56,104 nt of DNA, from the NCBI GenBank assembly GCA_938002665.1, contig CALLAE010000011.1, positions 1-56,104 on the forward strand, in the 5' to 3' direction. Below the pieces are notes generated by a model. That model made no database searches and was not told the origin of the DNA. It worked only from the letters and a program-made list of their open reading frames with translations. The DNA comes from an uncultured Saprospiraceae bacterium. GTDB lineage: Bacteria > Bacteroidota > Bacteroidia > Chitinophagales > Saprospiraceae. A program made the translations under genes and the position numbers. Position 1 is the first letter of the stretch; each line of letters opens with the position of its first letter. Positions 383-52,256 of this stretch are shown here, piece by piece.

Positions 383-3300
383 CTATTTGGTAATTGCTAT
401 CTTCTTGACAGCTATCTTATTATCTACTATTATTTCTAAAGAGTATACGCCTGCTGGAATATTATTCACATCTATATTATACACCTTGTATCCTTTTTCC
501 AACTTAACATCTAGTATCAACCTATCTGCTATCATACGACCTAGATGATCGATTAGACTTACTTTTATCTCAGAGGAATCTTCAAACAAATCTATTCCTA
601 CATTTAGTTCGTCTAATACTGGATTTGGAAAAATCTTCACATCAAAACCCTGTACAGGTCTTTCTTGAGAATTATTGACAGAAACCACTTTAGAATAACT
701 AAATGTCTCATCTAAATCTACTTGTTTGACTCTGTAATAATTCACTCCGTTACTGAATCCTAAATGGTTATAGCTGTAATCTAAAGTACCGCTATAGGTG
801 CCATAAACAGATTCTACAAAATCTACACTTAGGAAGTTATCAGTAGTGCCGTTAGATACTTGGATTTCATAGCGGCTAACATTTCTTTCATTGGAAACTT
901 GCCATTCTACTTTATTGGTCTTATCCATATTCTCTACTGTTACATCTACCCAAGTCACTGGTAATGATTCTGGCATGAGGCCTGCATCTACAGAAGGCAC
1001 ATGATCACCAGGTCTTACTGTATACACCTGAGTGGTGTTAGGCCCATTACTCCCATCTACATCACTATCTGTTGTGTCATCAGTCCCTTCATTTGGTAGC
1101 GTGATAGTATATCCAGTAGGCAAGTTGAATTGAACATAATACTGATCTTGAGGTAACATATCCAACATGTACCTCCCATCTGAGTCTGAAGTGGCAGTAG
1201 CTATCATCTCTCCATCAAGATTTATAGCCTGAATTTCTACTCCCCGTACACCTGGCTCAGTAGCATCCCTCTGACCATCCGCATTGTTATCTTGCCATAC
1301 AAAGTCTCCAATAGTCCCCGCAGGGTAAAAACCAGCACCAATATCACATTTCTCATCTCCTGACTCTACCATGAAGGCATCTGTAGTCCCTGGACCAAAA
1401 GCCCCTGTGACATCAGAATCTATATTTTCATTAGATCCAATATTGGCCATAGCTGCAACTAATCTGTTAGGTGGATTATTGAATTTAACATAGTACTCTC
1501 CTGGAGCAACACAGAACTTAAAATAGCCATCATCAGAAGCTGTTCCTGGCTTATGATCTGTATATAGTGTCTCTACCTTAACATAGAAAGGACCTACATT
1601 TCTATATAGCTCAACCTTCAATCCATTGATACCATTTTCATTGTTTTGCCATGTGCTATTCTCATTCAGATCAAACCATACCAACTCACCAATTTTTGCA
1701 CATTTAAATACACCATAATCTCTACTCAAGTCAATCTCACCAGGTCCTAAAGTGAAGATAGGAGTTGTATGCTCACCATTAGTGCCATCTACATCACTAT
1801 CAGAATTGGTGTTTCCAGATGAATTAGGAAAAGTAGATGTGTATTCGTCTCCAGGAATAAATCTAACATAGTAATCTCCTGGCGGCACATCATCAAAATA
1901 ATACTGTCCGTTGCTATCTGTTATCTGTATTGCTATAAGATTCCCTAGATGATTATACAACTCAACCCTGATATCAGAAATAGTTGGTTCACCAGGGTCT
2001 TGTATTCCATTACCATCTATATCTTCCCATAAAAAATCCCCCACTGCACCATTACATACTGGAGCTGAGATAGATATACCAGGGTCAGAAGCAGAGCATC
2101 CATTGGCATCCAGGACTATGATATCATAGGTCCCTGCTCTAAGAGAAGAGAAAACATTGTTTGGACTAGTTGTGACACCTCCATCTATACTATATGTAAA
2201 AGGTCCTGTACCACCAGTCACAGTTATAGTTATACTCCCATCAGGAGAGTTACAGTTTGTATCATCTAATACTGCAACTGCAAGGGTAATCGTGGACGGA
2301 CCTGCAAGTGTCACAGCATCTGTTATCTCACAATTATTGGCATCAGTAACTATTATGTCATAAGTACCAGCACCCAATCCTGTAAATGAATTGCTTGCAG
2401 AGGTTGTTATTCCTCCATCTATACTATATGCCAAGGGAGCAGTACCGCCAGTAGCAGTTATAATAATTGTACCATCATCTGTACTACAAGACATATCATC
2501 AGTGCTTGCTATCGACATTGTTATTGCTGAAGGGCCAGCCAGTGTCGCTGTATCAGTAACATCACAATTATTAGCATCAGTTACAACTATATTATAGGTT
2601 CCAGCTCCTAGCGATGTGAATGCATTACTTGTAGATGTTGTAGCACCTCCATCTATGCTATAAGAAAGAGGAGCTACCCCCCCAGTAGCTGTAATCGTAA
2701 TCGTTCCATCATCTACTGTACACGAAGTATCATCTGTACTAGCAACAGAAATCGTATAAGTGCCTGGACCAGTTAGTATAGCCATATCAGTAACCTGACA
2801 GCCTGTCGCTCCTTCCACAACTATATCATAAGTACCTGCTCCCAGGCTAGTAAAGACATTATTAGCTGAACTGGTCGCACCACCATCTATGCTGTAACTA
2901 AGCGGGGCAGTCCCACCAGAAGCTGTGATAGTGATAGACCCATCATCGACAGAACAAGAACTATCATCAGTCGTAGCTACCTCAGCTATTGTTATGCCTG
3001 AAGGACCTTGAAGAGTAGCTGTAGCTAATTCTTCGCAACCATTAGCATCTTGCACCACTACATTATATGTTCCAGCCCCTAAGGCGGTAAAGGAATTACT
3101 TGAACTAAAAGTAGAACCGCCATCTATACTGAATTGTAGTGGGTCAGCACCACCAGATACTGCTGGAGTAATACTACCATTATCATTAGTACAATCTGTA
3201 TTATCTACTTCACCTAGATCAGTTATCGTCATAGAAGCTGATATATCTACAGTAACTGTGGCAATACCTGAACATCCTGTGTCATCAGTCACTGTAACCG

Positions 3301-46358: not shown

Positions 46359-46427
46359 TTTTACTAGTATTCTAATTTAGAACTCCAGATTACCTGTAAA
46401 AATTTAAAGCATTATTGGGATAAAATT

Positions 46428-46604
46428 TGCTATTAATTTTAGCAAATATTATCATATTTTGCTATTATTTTTAGCACTTAATTACATATTTTGCTATATT
46501 TTTTAGCATTATATTGCAATAATTGCTATTTATTTTAGCAATTTACCTAATTAATTGCTTAATTTTATAGCATTAATTTAATTATAATGCTTTGAAATGC
46601 AGCA
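46428..46604 (+). repeat. Array of six inverted repeats with an exact 32-bp period, running into the ATPase start codon
   Basis: Each unit has the form TGCT(A/T)-N7-(T/C)AGCA. Centres fall at 46436, 46468, 46500, 46532, 46564 and 46596, exactly 32 bp apart. Units 1 and 4 have perfect 8-bp arms (ATTTGCTA/TAGCAAAT and AATTGCTA/TAGCAATT). The 7-nt middles of units 1-5 are T-rich on the plus strand, so the units also act as direct repeats. The sixth unit is degenerate, and its 7-nt middle (TGAAATG) contains the start codon at 46597-46599. A weak, one-base-shifted right half-site near 46408 may be a relic of a seventh. The spacing is close to three helical turns, which suits a multimeric DNA-binding protein; transcribed RNA could instead form a chain of small hairpins. 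Confidence 0.9.
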
Positions 46605-47817
46605 ATTATATGCAAAATCCAACGCTAGAATCCTAAAAGCAAAAAGCTTCCATTATCGAGATGTCATTCCAAATCTGAATCCCGAAGCTAGACTGAATAT
46701 CATAAGAGGTCTAAGAGGCGTGGGCAAGACAACCTACATTTTACAGCAAGCACATGAAAGACAAAAGGAAGAAAATAAGGTTCTGTATATAAGTCTAGAT
46801 GATTTCTACTTTCTAGATAACAGACTCTACTCTGTCATAGAAACCTTCTATAATGATGGAGGTCGATACTTGTACATGGATGAAGTTCATAAATACGCGA
46901 AATGGGAAGTAGAAGTAAAGAATGCCTATGATATATTTCCTGAGGATCTGAAAATTATGATTACAGGCTCATCAGCTCTTGAGATACATCAGAGTCATGC
47001 CGATCTGAGCAGAAGAGCACATTATTACTCGATGCCGGGTCTATCTTTTAGAGAATATCTAAAGTATAAAAAAGGCCATAATACAGAAAAAAGCTATGCT
47101 TTAGCTGAGCTCATAGCAGAAAAAGACAACCTAAGTAAGACCCTGAATGACAACATACCTGGTCTACTAGGCTTATTCAAAACTTATCTGCAGGAAGGGT
47201 TTTTCGCCATCTGCCTAGAGGATAATATAGACTATATGAGAATACTCCACCAGATAGTCGAGAATACAGTACAGATAGACCTCAGAATACATAAGAGCAT
47301 CAACATAGAAGAAAGTAGACAGATACTAGCCTTGCTGAAGCATCTCTCTTCATCAGTACCCTATCAGATAAACATATCCAAGACGGCAGAGAAAATACAT
47401 GTGGACAGAAACAAGCTGATGGAATATCTAGATCTATTGCAAAAGGCTGACCTCCTTTATAAAATCAACTACCCTCAGTCTAAAAAAGGGTCCATGAGCA
47501 AGCCAGACAAAATCTACCTCAACAATCCTAATCTTTACTATGCCCTAGATCAGTATAATAGCAATATAGGAGCGACTAGGGAAGCATTCGTACTTAACCA
47601 GTTAAAAGCTGTAGATTATGAAACCAGGCTGCATATTTCGGCTGATTACGAAGTAACTCTGAAACAAAACAAGGGAAATGCGGTATTCGAAGTAGGCGGA
47701 AAAGACAAAAAAGCAAAGCAAATAGAAGGTGTAGAGTCAGGTATATTACTTGTGGACGATACACCATTAGGCTATGGAAATAGAATGCCTTTGTATCTTC
47801 TTGGATTCTTGTACTAG
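46597..47817 (+). CDS. AAA_14/DUF4143 family ATPase
   Basis: Cytoplasmic protein of 406 residues. An N-terminal AAA_14-type P-loop domain shows Walker A GLRGVGKTT (38-46), Walker B YLYMDEVHK (91-99), an ITGSSALEI sensor strand and the LSRRAHYYSMPGLSFREYL segment typical of this family. The C-terminal part fits DUF4143, with a winged-helix-like stretch (TAEKIHVDRNKLMEYLDLLQ) and a final EVGGKDKKAKQIEGV nuclease-like strand-helix region. Members are common, often patchily distributed, and of unknown function. The start codon lies inside the last unit of the upstream 32-bp palindrome array, hinting at repression or autoregulation at the array. The gene is transcribed alone and ended by a hairpin. 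Confidence 0.85.
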   Translation: MQQLYAKSNARILKAKSFHYRDVIPNLNPEARLNIIRGLRGVGKTTYILQQAHERQKEENKVLYISLDDFYFLDNRLYSVIETFYNDGGRYLYMDEVHKYAKWEVEVKNAYDIFPEDLKIMITGSSALEIHQSHADLSRRAHYYSMPGLSFREYLKYKKGHNTEKSYALAELIAEKDNLSKTLNDNIPGLLGLFKTYLQEGFFAICLEDNIDYMRILHQIVENTVQIDLRIHKSINIEESRQILALLKHLSSSVPYQINISKTAEKIHVDRNKLMEYLDLLQKADLLYKINYPQSKKGSMSKPDKIYLNNPNLYYALDQYNSNIGATREAFVLNQLKAVDYETRLHISADYEVTLKQNKGNAVFEVGGKDKKAKQIEGVESGILLVDDTPLGYGNRMPLYLLGFLY

Positions 47818-48233: not shown

Positions 48234-48370
48234 TTATATTTATAAGTGATTTGAAAAGAATGAAAATTATAGATTATTAAAATCTCTTGCTGCTTAATGG
48301 CATAAATTTTGTCTCTCCACCCATTGTATTAATGCCCTTTATTGTTAATACAAACTGGATTTTACTGAGA

Positions 48371-49723
48371 ATGAAAAGGATTTCAACATTCAAACTATGT
48401 ATGTTGTCTATGCCATTTGTACTACTCATAGGCAGCTGCACAGAAGATAAGGTAGATTTATCTGCTGATCTCGATTACCAATTAGACAAGGCTATAAGTA
48501 GATACTCACCATCAGGTGACACAGATTTCTATATACTTCCCGATGAGGAAGACCTCGCCAATATTCCTCAAGATTCAAAAAACCCTCTGACTAGAGAGAA
48601 AGTACTCCTAGGTAAGTTCTTGTTTTTCGAAACAGGACTGGCAATGGATTCTAAACACAATTCTAGCCAAGGTACTTATTCATGCGCTTCATGCCATATT
48701 CCGGAAAAAGGTTTCAGACCCGACAACGTGCAGGGTATAGCAGATGGAGGAATGGGTTATGCTCATGATAGAGGTATGAATCCAGAATACACAGAAGAAG
48801 ATTTAGATGTGCAAGAGGCTCGGCCGCTTAACCTGATTAACGTGGCTTTTGTAAAAAACACAGCTTGGAATGGACAGTTCGGTGCTGATGGAGCAAATGT
48901 CAATACCAGTCATGTATGGGGGGACAGATTGGATACCAGGAGAAATAATCTTGGCTATGAAGGCTTAGAAACACAAAACATACAAGGTGTAACCACACAT
49001 AGGATGAGAATAGATAAGGAAATAGTGGACCAGTATGGTTATACTGATTTGTTTGATAAATCCTTTCCTGAATACAATGAAAGCAATAGATACTCTAAGA
49101 TTACTGGCTCACTTGCTATATCTGCATATCTAAGAACTGTAATTTCTAACAAAGCACCGTTTCAGGATTGGTTAATAGGAGATAAAGACGCTATGACTTA
49201 TCAGGAGAAAAAAGGTGCCTTACTTTTCTTTGGTAAAGCGAATTGTAATAGATGTCATTACAACCAAAACTTAGGTTCTATGGAATTCCATGCCTTAGGT
49301 GTCAATGATATGGATATGCATCCTGAATCTGTCAAAGCTTCTAATCCACTAGCGAGAAGAAATCTAGGTAGAGGTGGATTCACTAAAGAAGAAAGCGATC
49401 TGTACAAATATAAAGTACCAGGTATATACAATATAGGAGATGCCGATTTCTACTTTCATGGATCGAGTGCACGTACTTTAGAGGAACTGATAGAGTACAA
49501 GAACGTGGCTGTAAAAGAGAATGACAGAGTGCCTGATTCTCAAATGTCGCCTAAGTTTTCAGCTTTAAATCTAACAGAGGAAGAGAAAACTGACCTAGCT
49601 GCATTTATAAGAAATAGTCTGAAAGATCCAGACCTTACTAGATATCAGCCAGAGGAAATTAAGTCAGGCTTTTGTTTCCCTAACAATGATGAAATTTCTC
49701 AGACATACTTAGATTGTAACTAA
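48371..49723 (+). CDS. Di-haem cytochrome c peroxidase/MauG-family lipoprotein (copy 1)
   Basis: Exported lipoprotein of 450 residues. I start it at the ATG at 48371 (MKRISTFKL): the longer frame adds 28 residues ahead of a normal lipoprotein signal whose lipobox ends LIGSC (Cys23). Two c-type haem sites are visible, CASCH (105-109) and CNRCH (292-296), with the family segments KVLLGKFLFFE and RPLNLINVAF, and FYFHGSSARTLEELIEY near the end. Such proteins reduce peroxide with electrons from a cytochrome or copper donor, or act MauG-like on protein side chains; which applies here cannot be told. A paralogue of equal length lies 1.2 kb downstream. Confidence 0.9.
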   Translation: MKRISTFKLCMLSMPFVLLIGSCTEDKVDLSADLDYQLDKAISRYSPSGDTDFYILPDEEDLANIPQDSKNPLTREKVLLGKFLFFETGLAMDSKHNSSQGTYSCASCHIPEKGFRPDNVQGIADGGMGYAHDRGMNPEYTEEDLDVQEARPLNLINVAFVKNTAWNGQFGADGANVNTSHVWGDRLDTRRNNLGYEGLETQNIQGVTTHRMRIDKEIVDQYGYTDLFDKSFPEYNESNRYSKITGSLAISAYLRTVISNKAPFQDWLIGDKDAMTYQEKKGALLFFGKANCNRCHYNQNLGSMEFHALGVNDMDMHPESVKASNPLARRNLGRGGFTKEESDLYKYKVPGIYNIGDADFYFHGSSARTLEELIEYKNVAVKENDRVPDSQMSPKFSALNLTEEEKTDLAAFIRNSLKDPDLTRYQPEEIKSGFCFPNNDEISQTYLDCN

Positions 49724-50903: not shown

Positions 50904-52256
50904 ATGAAGAAACAGTTTTGGATAGCATTTAGTGCTTTTATTATGATGCTTGCCTGTACGCAAGACAGAATGCCGGAATTAATATCTCTAGATTTAGATT
51001 TAGAAGAACTCATAGAAAAAGCTGCTCCTCGGGACGCAGGAATGGACTTCTATATACTCCCAGACGAGACAGATCTACTCTCTATTCCCCAAGATAGTAT
51101 CAATAATCCACTAACTCCATCCAAGGTAGAGCTAGGTAAATTCCTATTCTTTGAAACTGGCTTTGCAACCAAGGCGAGAAATGAATCAGGTATGGGGACT
51201 TACTCATGTGCAAGCTGTCATATTCCTGAGGCGGGGTTTAAACCTGGCAACTTTCAAGGTGTAGCAGATGGTGGAGAAGGATTTGGAATAAATGGAGAAG
51301 ACAGGAGAAGAAAGTCAGATTATCTCGAAGAGGAACTAGACGTCCAAGCTATACGTCCACTCAGTCTTCTTAATGTAGCTTATGTTCAAAATACATTATG
51401 GAATGGTCGCTTTGGAAGAGAGGGAAATAATATAGGAACTGAAAATCTATGGAAACCAGAAGATGGTACAAATCTCAATGCCTTAGGCTTTGCAGCTATA
51501 GAAACACAAAACTTTGAAGGGCTAGAAACCCATAGAATAGAAATAGATAAAGAGCTAATAGATGAGTTTGGTTATACTGAACTCTTTGATGCATCATTTC
51601 CTGAGCTAAGTGAAGAAGATAGATATAGTAACCATGGAGGCTCTCTTGCTATCTCTGCTTACATAAGAACACTACTAGCTAATAAAGCGCCTTTTCAAGA
51701 ATGGCTAAAGGGGAACAGATCAGCAATGACAACGGATGAAAAAAAGGGAGCTTTATTGTTTTTTGGAAAAGCAAATTGTTACAACTGTCACTACAATCAA
51801 AACTTAGGTTCTGAGGAGTTCCATGCCCTAGGCGTACAAGATATGAGCGACAGAGCTTTCTTCAAAACCAGTGATGCTGAAGTACTAGACAGAAATCTAG
51901 GAAGAGGAGCATTCACTGGAGAAGAGTATGATAAATTCAGATTTAAGGTACCCCAGCTCTATAACATGTCGGATTCTCCATTCTACTTCCACGGAGCCAG
52001 TATTAAGGATCTTAAAGGTGTGATAGAATACAAAAACCTCGCTCAGACTCAAAGCTCTAGAATTCCGCAGAGCAATCTTTCTGAAAAGTTCATTCCCTTA
52101 AATCTGACTGAAGAAGAGCAGAATCAATTGCTATTATTCTTGGAAAATGGACTTAGAGATCCAGATCTTACGAGATACAAGCCTGACCACATCAAATCAG
52201 GAAATTGTTTTCCTAATAATGATGAAAGATCTAGAGTAGACCTAGGCTGTAACTAG
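50904..52256 (+). CDS. Di-haem cytochrome c peroxidase/MauG-family lipoprotein (copy 2)
   Basis: Paralogue of the lipoprotein ending at 49723, with the same length (450 residues), the same order of motifs, and haem sites CASCH (102-106) and CYNCH (292-296) at almost the same positions. The signal ends in lipobox MLAC (Cys18). Shared stretches include FYILPDE, KGALLFFGKANC, NLGRG-x-F and the C-terminal FPNNDE with a final GCN or DCN. Copy 2 differs most in the region after the first haem (residues 125-190) and around 310-345, which may shift the donor or substrate. An exact -7 element lies just upstream. It converges with the HU/SPOR gene over 4 bp. Confidence 0.9.
   Translation: MKKQFWIAFSAFIMMLACTQDRMPELISLDLDLEELIEKAAPRDAGMDFYILPDETDLLSIPQDSINNPLTPSKVELGKFLFFETGFATKARNESGMGTYSCASCHIPEAGFKPGNFQGVADGGEGFGINGEDRRRKSDYLEEELDVQAIRPLSLLNVAYVQNTLWNGRFGREGNNIGTENLWKPEDGTNLNALGFAAIETQNFEGLETHRIEIDKELIDEFGYTELFDASFPELSEEDRYSNHGGSLAISAYIRTLLANKAPFQEWLKGNRSAMTTDEKKGALLFFGKANCYNCHYNQNLGSEEFHALGVQDMSDRAFFKTSDAEVLDRNLGRGAFTGEEYDKFRFKVPQLYNMSDSPFYFHGASIKDLKGVIEYKNLAQTQSSRIPQSNLSEKFIPLNLTEEEQNQLLLFLENGLRDPDLTRYKPDHIKSGNCFPNNDERSRVDLGCN

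Follow-up and report, generated by a model that had tools for sequence, protein, structure and literature searches.

A 32-bp phased palindrome array upstream of an AAA_14/DUF4143 ATPase gene, its counterparts across the gene family and their probable role as self-operators

The window, i.e., the whole stretch of 56,104 nucleotides that was analysed (contig CALLAE010000011.1 of an uncultured Saprospiraceae bacterium, assembly GCA_938002665.1), harbors an array of short palindromes between the end of an oxaloacetate decarboxylase beta gene (46358) and a gene for a predicted ATPase (46597-47817). The features at this locus are:

46428 to 46444, unstranded: palindrome unit 1, TGCTATTAATTTTAGCA (exact pattern match)
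46460 to 46476, unstranded: palindrome unit 2 (exact pattern match)
46492 to 46508, unstranded: palindrome unit 3 (exact pattern match)
46524 to 46540, unstranded: palindrome unit 4 (exact pattern match)
46556 to 46572, unstranded: palindrome unit 5 (exact pattern match)
46588 to 46604, unstranded: palindrome unit 6, with the ATG at 46597 inside (one-mismatch match, exact phase)
46597 to 47817, + strand: ATPase gene, 406 aa, AAA_14 and DUF4143 (ORF, Pfam and PADLOC)
46708 to 46734, + strand: presumed Walker A motif GLRGVGKTT, residues 38-46 (conservation among 43 homologues)
47305 to 47445, + strand: predicted winged helix-turn-helix, residues 237-283, with recognition helix 271-283 (model and covariation)
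47644 to 47703, + strand: candidate PD-(D/E)XK residues D350, E365 and K369 (conservation; family assignment from the available part of PMC12988326)

Elsewhere in the window, two similar ORFs (48287-49723 and 50904-52256) carry CxxCH haem motifs and by eye look cytochrome c peroxidase-like, with a nucleotidyltransferase-like ORF lying between them.

Pattern matching in the region 46404-46604 recovered five exact palindromes of the form TGCTW-N7-WAGCA and a sixth with one mismatch, stepping by exactly 32 bp (centres 46436, 46468, 46500, 46532, 46564 and 46596). The first-pass annotation, made from the letters alone, had described this six-unit array with the same centres and period, and all of it was reproduced, as were the T-rich 7-nt middles of units 1-5 on the + strand and the position of the last, weaker unit over the ATG of the ATPase gene. 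It had also held that the spacers differ completely, which goes slightly too far: they are indeed divergent, yet their mean pairwise identity of 43% exceeds the 34% predicted by composition alone (arms 91%, 7-nt middles 54%, 15-nt spacers 43%). The array is AT-rich (79%) and, with its six units, stands at the large end of the family range. The stretch 46359-46620 holds five exact units, compared with none in 1950 and one in 50 of 2000 dinucleotide shuffles. Throughout the rest of the organism's own genome (assembly 87.5% complete) no paired units 10-20 bp apart were found; the strict single unit TGCTA-N7-TAGCA occurs nine times in the whole assembly, four in the array and five scattered, and a reversed control pattern three times.

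The ATPase scores above the Pfam cut-offs for both AAA_14 (PF13173, E 4.7e-27, 95 bits, cut-off 27) and DUF4143 (PF13635, E 4.3e-08, 33.5 bits, cut-off 28.1), and five PADLOC models of PDC-S01 (PDLC04787-04791) match it, the best at E 5.1e-32. Within the conserved GLRGVGKTT motif, which we take to be the Walker A motif, residues G38, R40, G41, G43 and K44 are invariant across 43 homologues. D350 and E365, candidate nuclease residues, are likewise invariant among 43 sequences, and K369 is present in at least 80%. A structure model built from 7 sequences has a low mean pLDDT (59.9), with block means of 85 for residues 261-280; of this model we used the helix-turn-helix (helices 237-251, 260-267 and 271-283) and set the C-terminal part aside. 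In the PDB the single protein sequence had no match, while a profile matched P-loop-type proteins weakly, with RecA fusion chains at the top. Fold searching with the low-confidence model returned generic AAA+ proteins among the 50 matches listed (TM-scores 0.21-0.27 to the query), including clamp loaders, ORC and RuvB. Viral contigs yielded no match with the single protein and four with an alignment, and two phage records match the ATPase.

Homologues were collected over 976 genomes, and of 180 loci matched we kept the window's gene and 162 homologues (163 in all) after dropping 13 duplicates, two loci without a start and two that were too short; since searches at E 1e-40 scored few candidates per genome (e.g., four), copy numbers are lower bounds. 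The phylum of these genomes was taken as Bacteroidota, the named relatives being Bacteroidetes. Paired palindromes scoring at least 21 lie upstream of 63 of these 163 genes. Among 157 controls, for which we took the upstream sequence of other genes at these loci and in the window, two reach that score. In a set of 141 distinct genes it is reached by 55, compared with 7 of 2820 shuffles, in which no period is preferred. Thus, the supposition that other ATPases of the family might have arrays upstream was borne out. One of the two scoring controls, L016, shows the motif of an adjoining ATPase array, and around 2917-3107 of that locus, close to the array with this motif, more palindromes of the TGCTTA type recur at a 33-bp spacing.

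A second scan, in which YG ends raise the score slightly (unlike in the two pair scans above), gave a confident array in 77 of the 163 genes and none in the other 86. Both the arrays and their period were computed directly: the upstream regions show periodic inverted repeats at 33 bp in 40 arrays, 32 in 28, 29 in five, 31 in three and 28 in one, so that 68 of 77 have a period of 32 or 33 bp despite differing letters, as expected if, as proposed earlier, the spacing itself is selected. Units are 17 or 18 bp long across homologues; of 141 steps from one unit to the next, 126 leave a gap of 14-15 bp and 11 a gap of 11 bp. Three properties of the window's array fail to extend to the family as rules. 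Unit number is no conserved trait, ranging from two (30 arrays) through three (35), four (9) and five (1) to six (2). The idea that all sites share one helix face is too strict, as the 29-bp class, at about 2.8 turns, does not fit it. Enclosure of the start codon is exceptional: the nearest unit is centred at -1 or +1 in only two of 77 arrays and at -10 to -17 in 54. The five genes of the 29-bp class, with its 11-bp gap (L091, L099, L136, L142 and L170), have the recognition-helix pattern R-N-T-[IV]-L-K in common.

Each half-site consists of YG and three variable bases, whose letters differ between homologues. We compared segments of the protein with the operator bases after removal of overall similarity, in 67 proteins, with one array lacking YG and nine proteins of at least 80% identity excluded. 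Whichever version of the test is used, the ten best 9-residue segments all start at residues 265-274, where the predicted helix-turn-helix has its turn and third helix, and the covariation peak spans residues 265-282. The best partial r is 0.343 (all segments: mean 0.000, sd 0.118); with hard consensus letters it is 0.314, compared with a maximum of 0.191 in 300 permutations, which ignore kinship, and the comparison of segment with segment is for this reason the better control. Taken as single columns, the three strongest (176, 303 and 298) lie outside the helix. This covariation, computed directly from the sequences, is partly readable as a code: Asp/Glu272 accompanies YGAC in 8 of 8 cases and Asn272 accompanies YGCA in 10 of 10 and YGCT in 13 of 14, while Arg271 goes with T as first base (63/63) and Lys271 with C (3/4). 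The code is not one-to-one, other operators being found in 12 of 35 Asn272 and 5 of 13 Asp/Glu272 proteins. The window protein agrees with it, pairing Arg271-Asn272 with TGCTA units.

Distant pairs of proteins with the same operator have more similar helices (0.412, 25 pairs) than those with different operators (0.314, 528 pairs). As a nearest-neighbour predictor of the operator, the helix gained nothing on the full protein sequence for close kin and surpassed it slightly for distant ones: below 42% identity the helix recovered about 1.3 of three bases, the full protein 0.92 and random pairs 1.11. Paralogues of the same genome have differing operators in 18 of 19 pairs, which is in line with random pairing (8% same); this argues against a shared host factor, yet not for selection on distinctness. 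At the family level, the operator letters apparently depend on the predicted DNA-binding helix of the ATPase itself.

The arrays also keep a register with a promoter element. Of 60 arrays, 40 have TAnnTTTG beginning 6 bp to the left of their last unit, and its final TG forms the first two bases of that unit, an overlap computed directly in these relatives. According to the part of PMC7366714 available, the primary sigma factor of the phylum has TAnnTTTG as its -7 consensus. Given that the last unit stands in this register, a protein bound to it should exclude RNA polymerase, and the upstream units should lie outside the transcript. In the window, the exact TAnnTTTG is absent from the 220 bp upstream, where seven one-mismatch sites occur, and the last unit, centred at -1 over the ATG, departs from the usual phase.

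A separate DUF4143 sample comprised 40 relatives and 72 loci, of which 45 upstream regions were usable; loci were left out for having no Walker A by pattern, as duplicates or for too little upstream sequence, and in one (L257) the start had been set inside the gene. A 20-base self-match of at least 17 occurs upstream of 28 of these 45 genes, compared with 4 of 2700 shuffles, and the lags of the 29 genes with shuffle p ≤ 0.033 are 32 in 16, 33 in seven, 22-23 in four, 44 in one and 50 in one. The palindrome-pair scan at a score of at least 22 found 17 of 45 genes, compared with 7 of 450 shuffles, and in 15 of these genes the pairs are 32 or 33 bp apart. The -7 box has no sharp position in this sample (17/45 at -45 to -12). 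Of the three further DUF4143 genes in the own genome, two show lags, of 33 and 44 bp, and the third was left unjudged because an internal start had been taken. At the 44-bp lag (L196, contig C97, an AAA_14/DUF4143 gene) two 22-bp repeats alternate within the 150 bp before the start (20/20 self-match), and at the 33-bp lag (L198, contig C153) the repeats end in TGTNACA-like arms (19/20 self-match).

Beyond the Bacteroidota, we picked 14 plasmid genes from match lists, four of them archaeal. A lag of 32-34 with shuffle p < 0.05 is present in four of the 14 (Methanosphaera, Methanomethylovorans, Haladaptatus and Aliarcobacter), i.e., in three of the four archaeal genes tried, and p < 0.05 is reached at other lags in three (Ruminococcus 40, Peptoclostridium 39 and Calditerrivibrio 28). 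The remaining seven (Lactobacillus, Acinetobacter, Sulfurimonas, Arcobacter, Sulfuricurvum, Treponema and Thermococcus) have no significant self-repeat. Two of these seven are placed between the genes of another system, on an Arcobacter cloacae plasmid between cas3 and cas4 (L201) and on a Treponema saccharophilum plasmid between hsdR and a methyltransferase gene (L203), and an array of their own is thus not expected.

We consider it probable, from sequence comparison, that each ATPase acts as an autorepressor by binding to its own array. A dimer of the ATPase would read each 17-18 bp palindrome (half-site YGnnn) through its winged helix-turn-helix, adjacent dimers would sit approximately three helical turns apart, and we infer that the phased units favor cooperative binding. 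The bound ATPase would cover the promoter and keep its own gene low until, upon a presumed inducing signal, it is titrated off or released and repression ends. Autoregulation had been suggested in the first-pass annotation, and it now gains indirect support from the helix covariation and the -7 register of the relatives; in the window itself the -7 box was not found. Besides this missing exact -7 box and the unusual phase of the window's last unit, several results speak against the self-operator reading, i.e., the 86 of 163 genes without a confident array, the position of the three strongest single columns outside the helix, the exceptions to the code at residue 272, the small gain in nearest-neighbour prediction and the low count outside the Bacteroidota (4/14).

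Alternatively, the reader could be a separate host transcription factor rather than the ATPase, given that the link between ATPase and array is drawn from sequence and that the arrays are sited at promoters. This is decidedly improbable, as the operators of paralogues differ in nearly every pair, the letters follow the ATPase's own helix and the own genome holds no further paired units. An array of up to six units does exceed what repression needs, and archaeal Orc1/Cdc6 genes often adjoin arrays of their own sites; these points, together with the 79% AT content and the clamp loader, ORC and RuvB matches of the low-confidence fold model, would suit a platform of the assembly or replication type (resembling an origin, an iteron or a centromere) for a higher-order AAA+ complex, with promoter control secondary. 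We regard such a platform as improbable, considering that 65 of 77 arrays have two or three units in fixed register with the -7 box and that several genomes carry at least 2-4 such genes.

A run of small RNA hairpins, the option raised together with the array, might instead form in the ATPase mRNA leader and bring about attenuation or control of translation. None of 200 shuffles folds as well as the 191-nt RNA (z -5.2), and in the window the last unit overlies the ATG with no exact -7 box found. However, inverted repeats fold by construction; in the lowest-energy fold unit 1 forms its own hairpin and the units otherwise mostly pair with each other, and Rfam gave no match in the window at gathering thresholds. 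In the 40 of 60 arrays whose last unit coincides with the -7 box, the upstream units would be untranscribed, and the arm letters follow a DNA-binding helix, so we hold a run of hairpins to be very improbable. Slippage can expand tandem repeats, and functionless repeats of that origin were considered too; their likelihood is close to nil, as the arms are far more alike than the spacers (91% against 43%, chance 34%) and one period with unrelated letters recurs across the family while control genes lack such arrays. Functionless slippage is already contradicted by this family pattern.

The family to which the window protein belongs by its PDC-S01 match is suspected of a role in defence. According to the available part of PMC12988326, PDC-S01 is an ATPase fused to a PD-(D/E)XK member and ranks fourth in frequency among prokaryotic defences, with 9986 instances in archaea and 29494 in bacteria; validation is pending for most such defence candidates. 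In the part of PMC4406477 available, a Thermus DUF4143 gene rises 6.6-fold with plasmid DNA when Argonaute is present and shows no such rise without Argonaute. Neighbouring defence genes, the PDC-S01 match and the Thermus response are leads, not proof, for a defence role. An unlikely though more far-reaching possibility is that these ATPases of bacteria and archaea are self-addressed machines, each gene travelling with an array that is read through a simple residue-to-base code. The array would then serve as assembly platform for a phased, higher-order ATPase/nuclease complex able to detect invading DNA or the processing of such DNA, and promoter silencing would be the resting state of this complex only.

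Under the self-operator reading, the arrays give many family members a predicted DNA ligand and a predicted half-site specificity code, the gene's own promoter would be a ready reporter in the search for the inducing signal, and many differing operator/reader pairs could serve as regulators. For a very common gene family suspected of phage defence, the arrays may thus be a handle. No title or abstract opening on such arrays was found in the DUF4143, COG1373 and PDC-S01 literature, of which most subscription papers fall outside the coverage, and the literature searched held no PDC-S01 biochemistry.

The closest known system is PDC-S01, i.e., the AAA_14 + DUF4143 architecture, whose models the window protein matches, making it a defence candidate; the accessible part of its description does not mention upstream arrays. 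Several older systems are similar in layout. Classical autoregulated repressors have palindromic operators, and here, likewise, promoter palindromes are apparently read by the product's helix-turn-helix; the difference is that the reader is an AAA+ ATPase with a putative nuclease domain and that 2-6 units are locked at 32-33 bp. BldC-type regulators bind variable numbers of repeats, their sites being direct repeats in many promoters; as in the ATPase arrays unit number varies and spacing is kept, but the ATPase units are palindromes and the own genome is without other paired units. Archaeal Orc1/Cdc6 with origin recognition boxes, plasmid iterons and ParR-parC have phased site arrays beside their own gene, so that array and DNA-binding protein gene stand side by side as here. 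The window protein has an AAA domain and a predicted helix-turn-helix, while its low-confidence fold model gave generic AAA+ matches, and a kinship with Orc1/Cdc6 initiators would be conjectural. Unlike those systems, the arrays described here lie in -7 box register. Autoregulatory operators and phased arrays are thus already known; what is new, to our knowledge, is that arrays of diverse sequence but locked period, with a code that can be read in part, recur across an AAA+ ATPase family.
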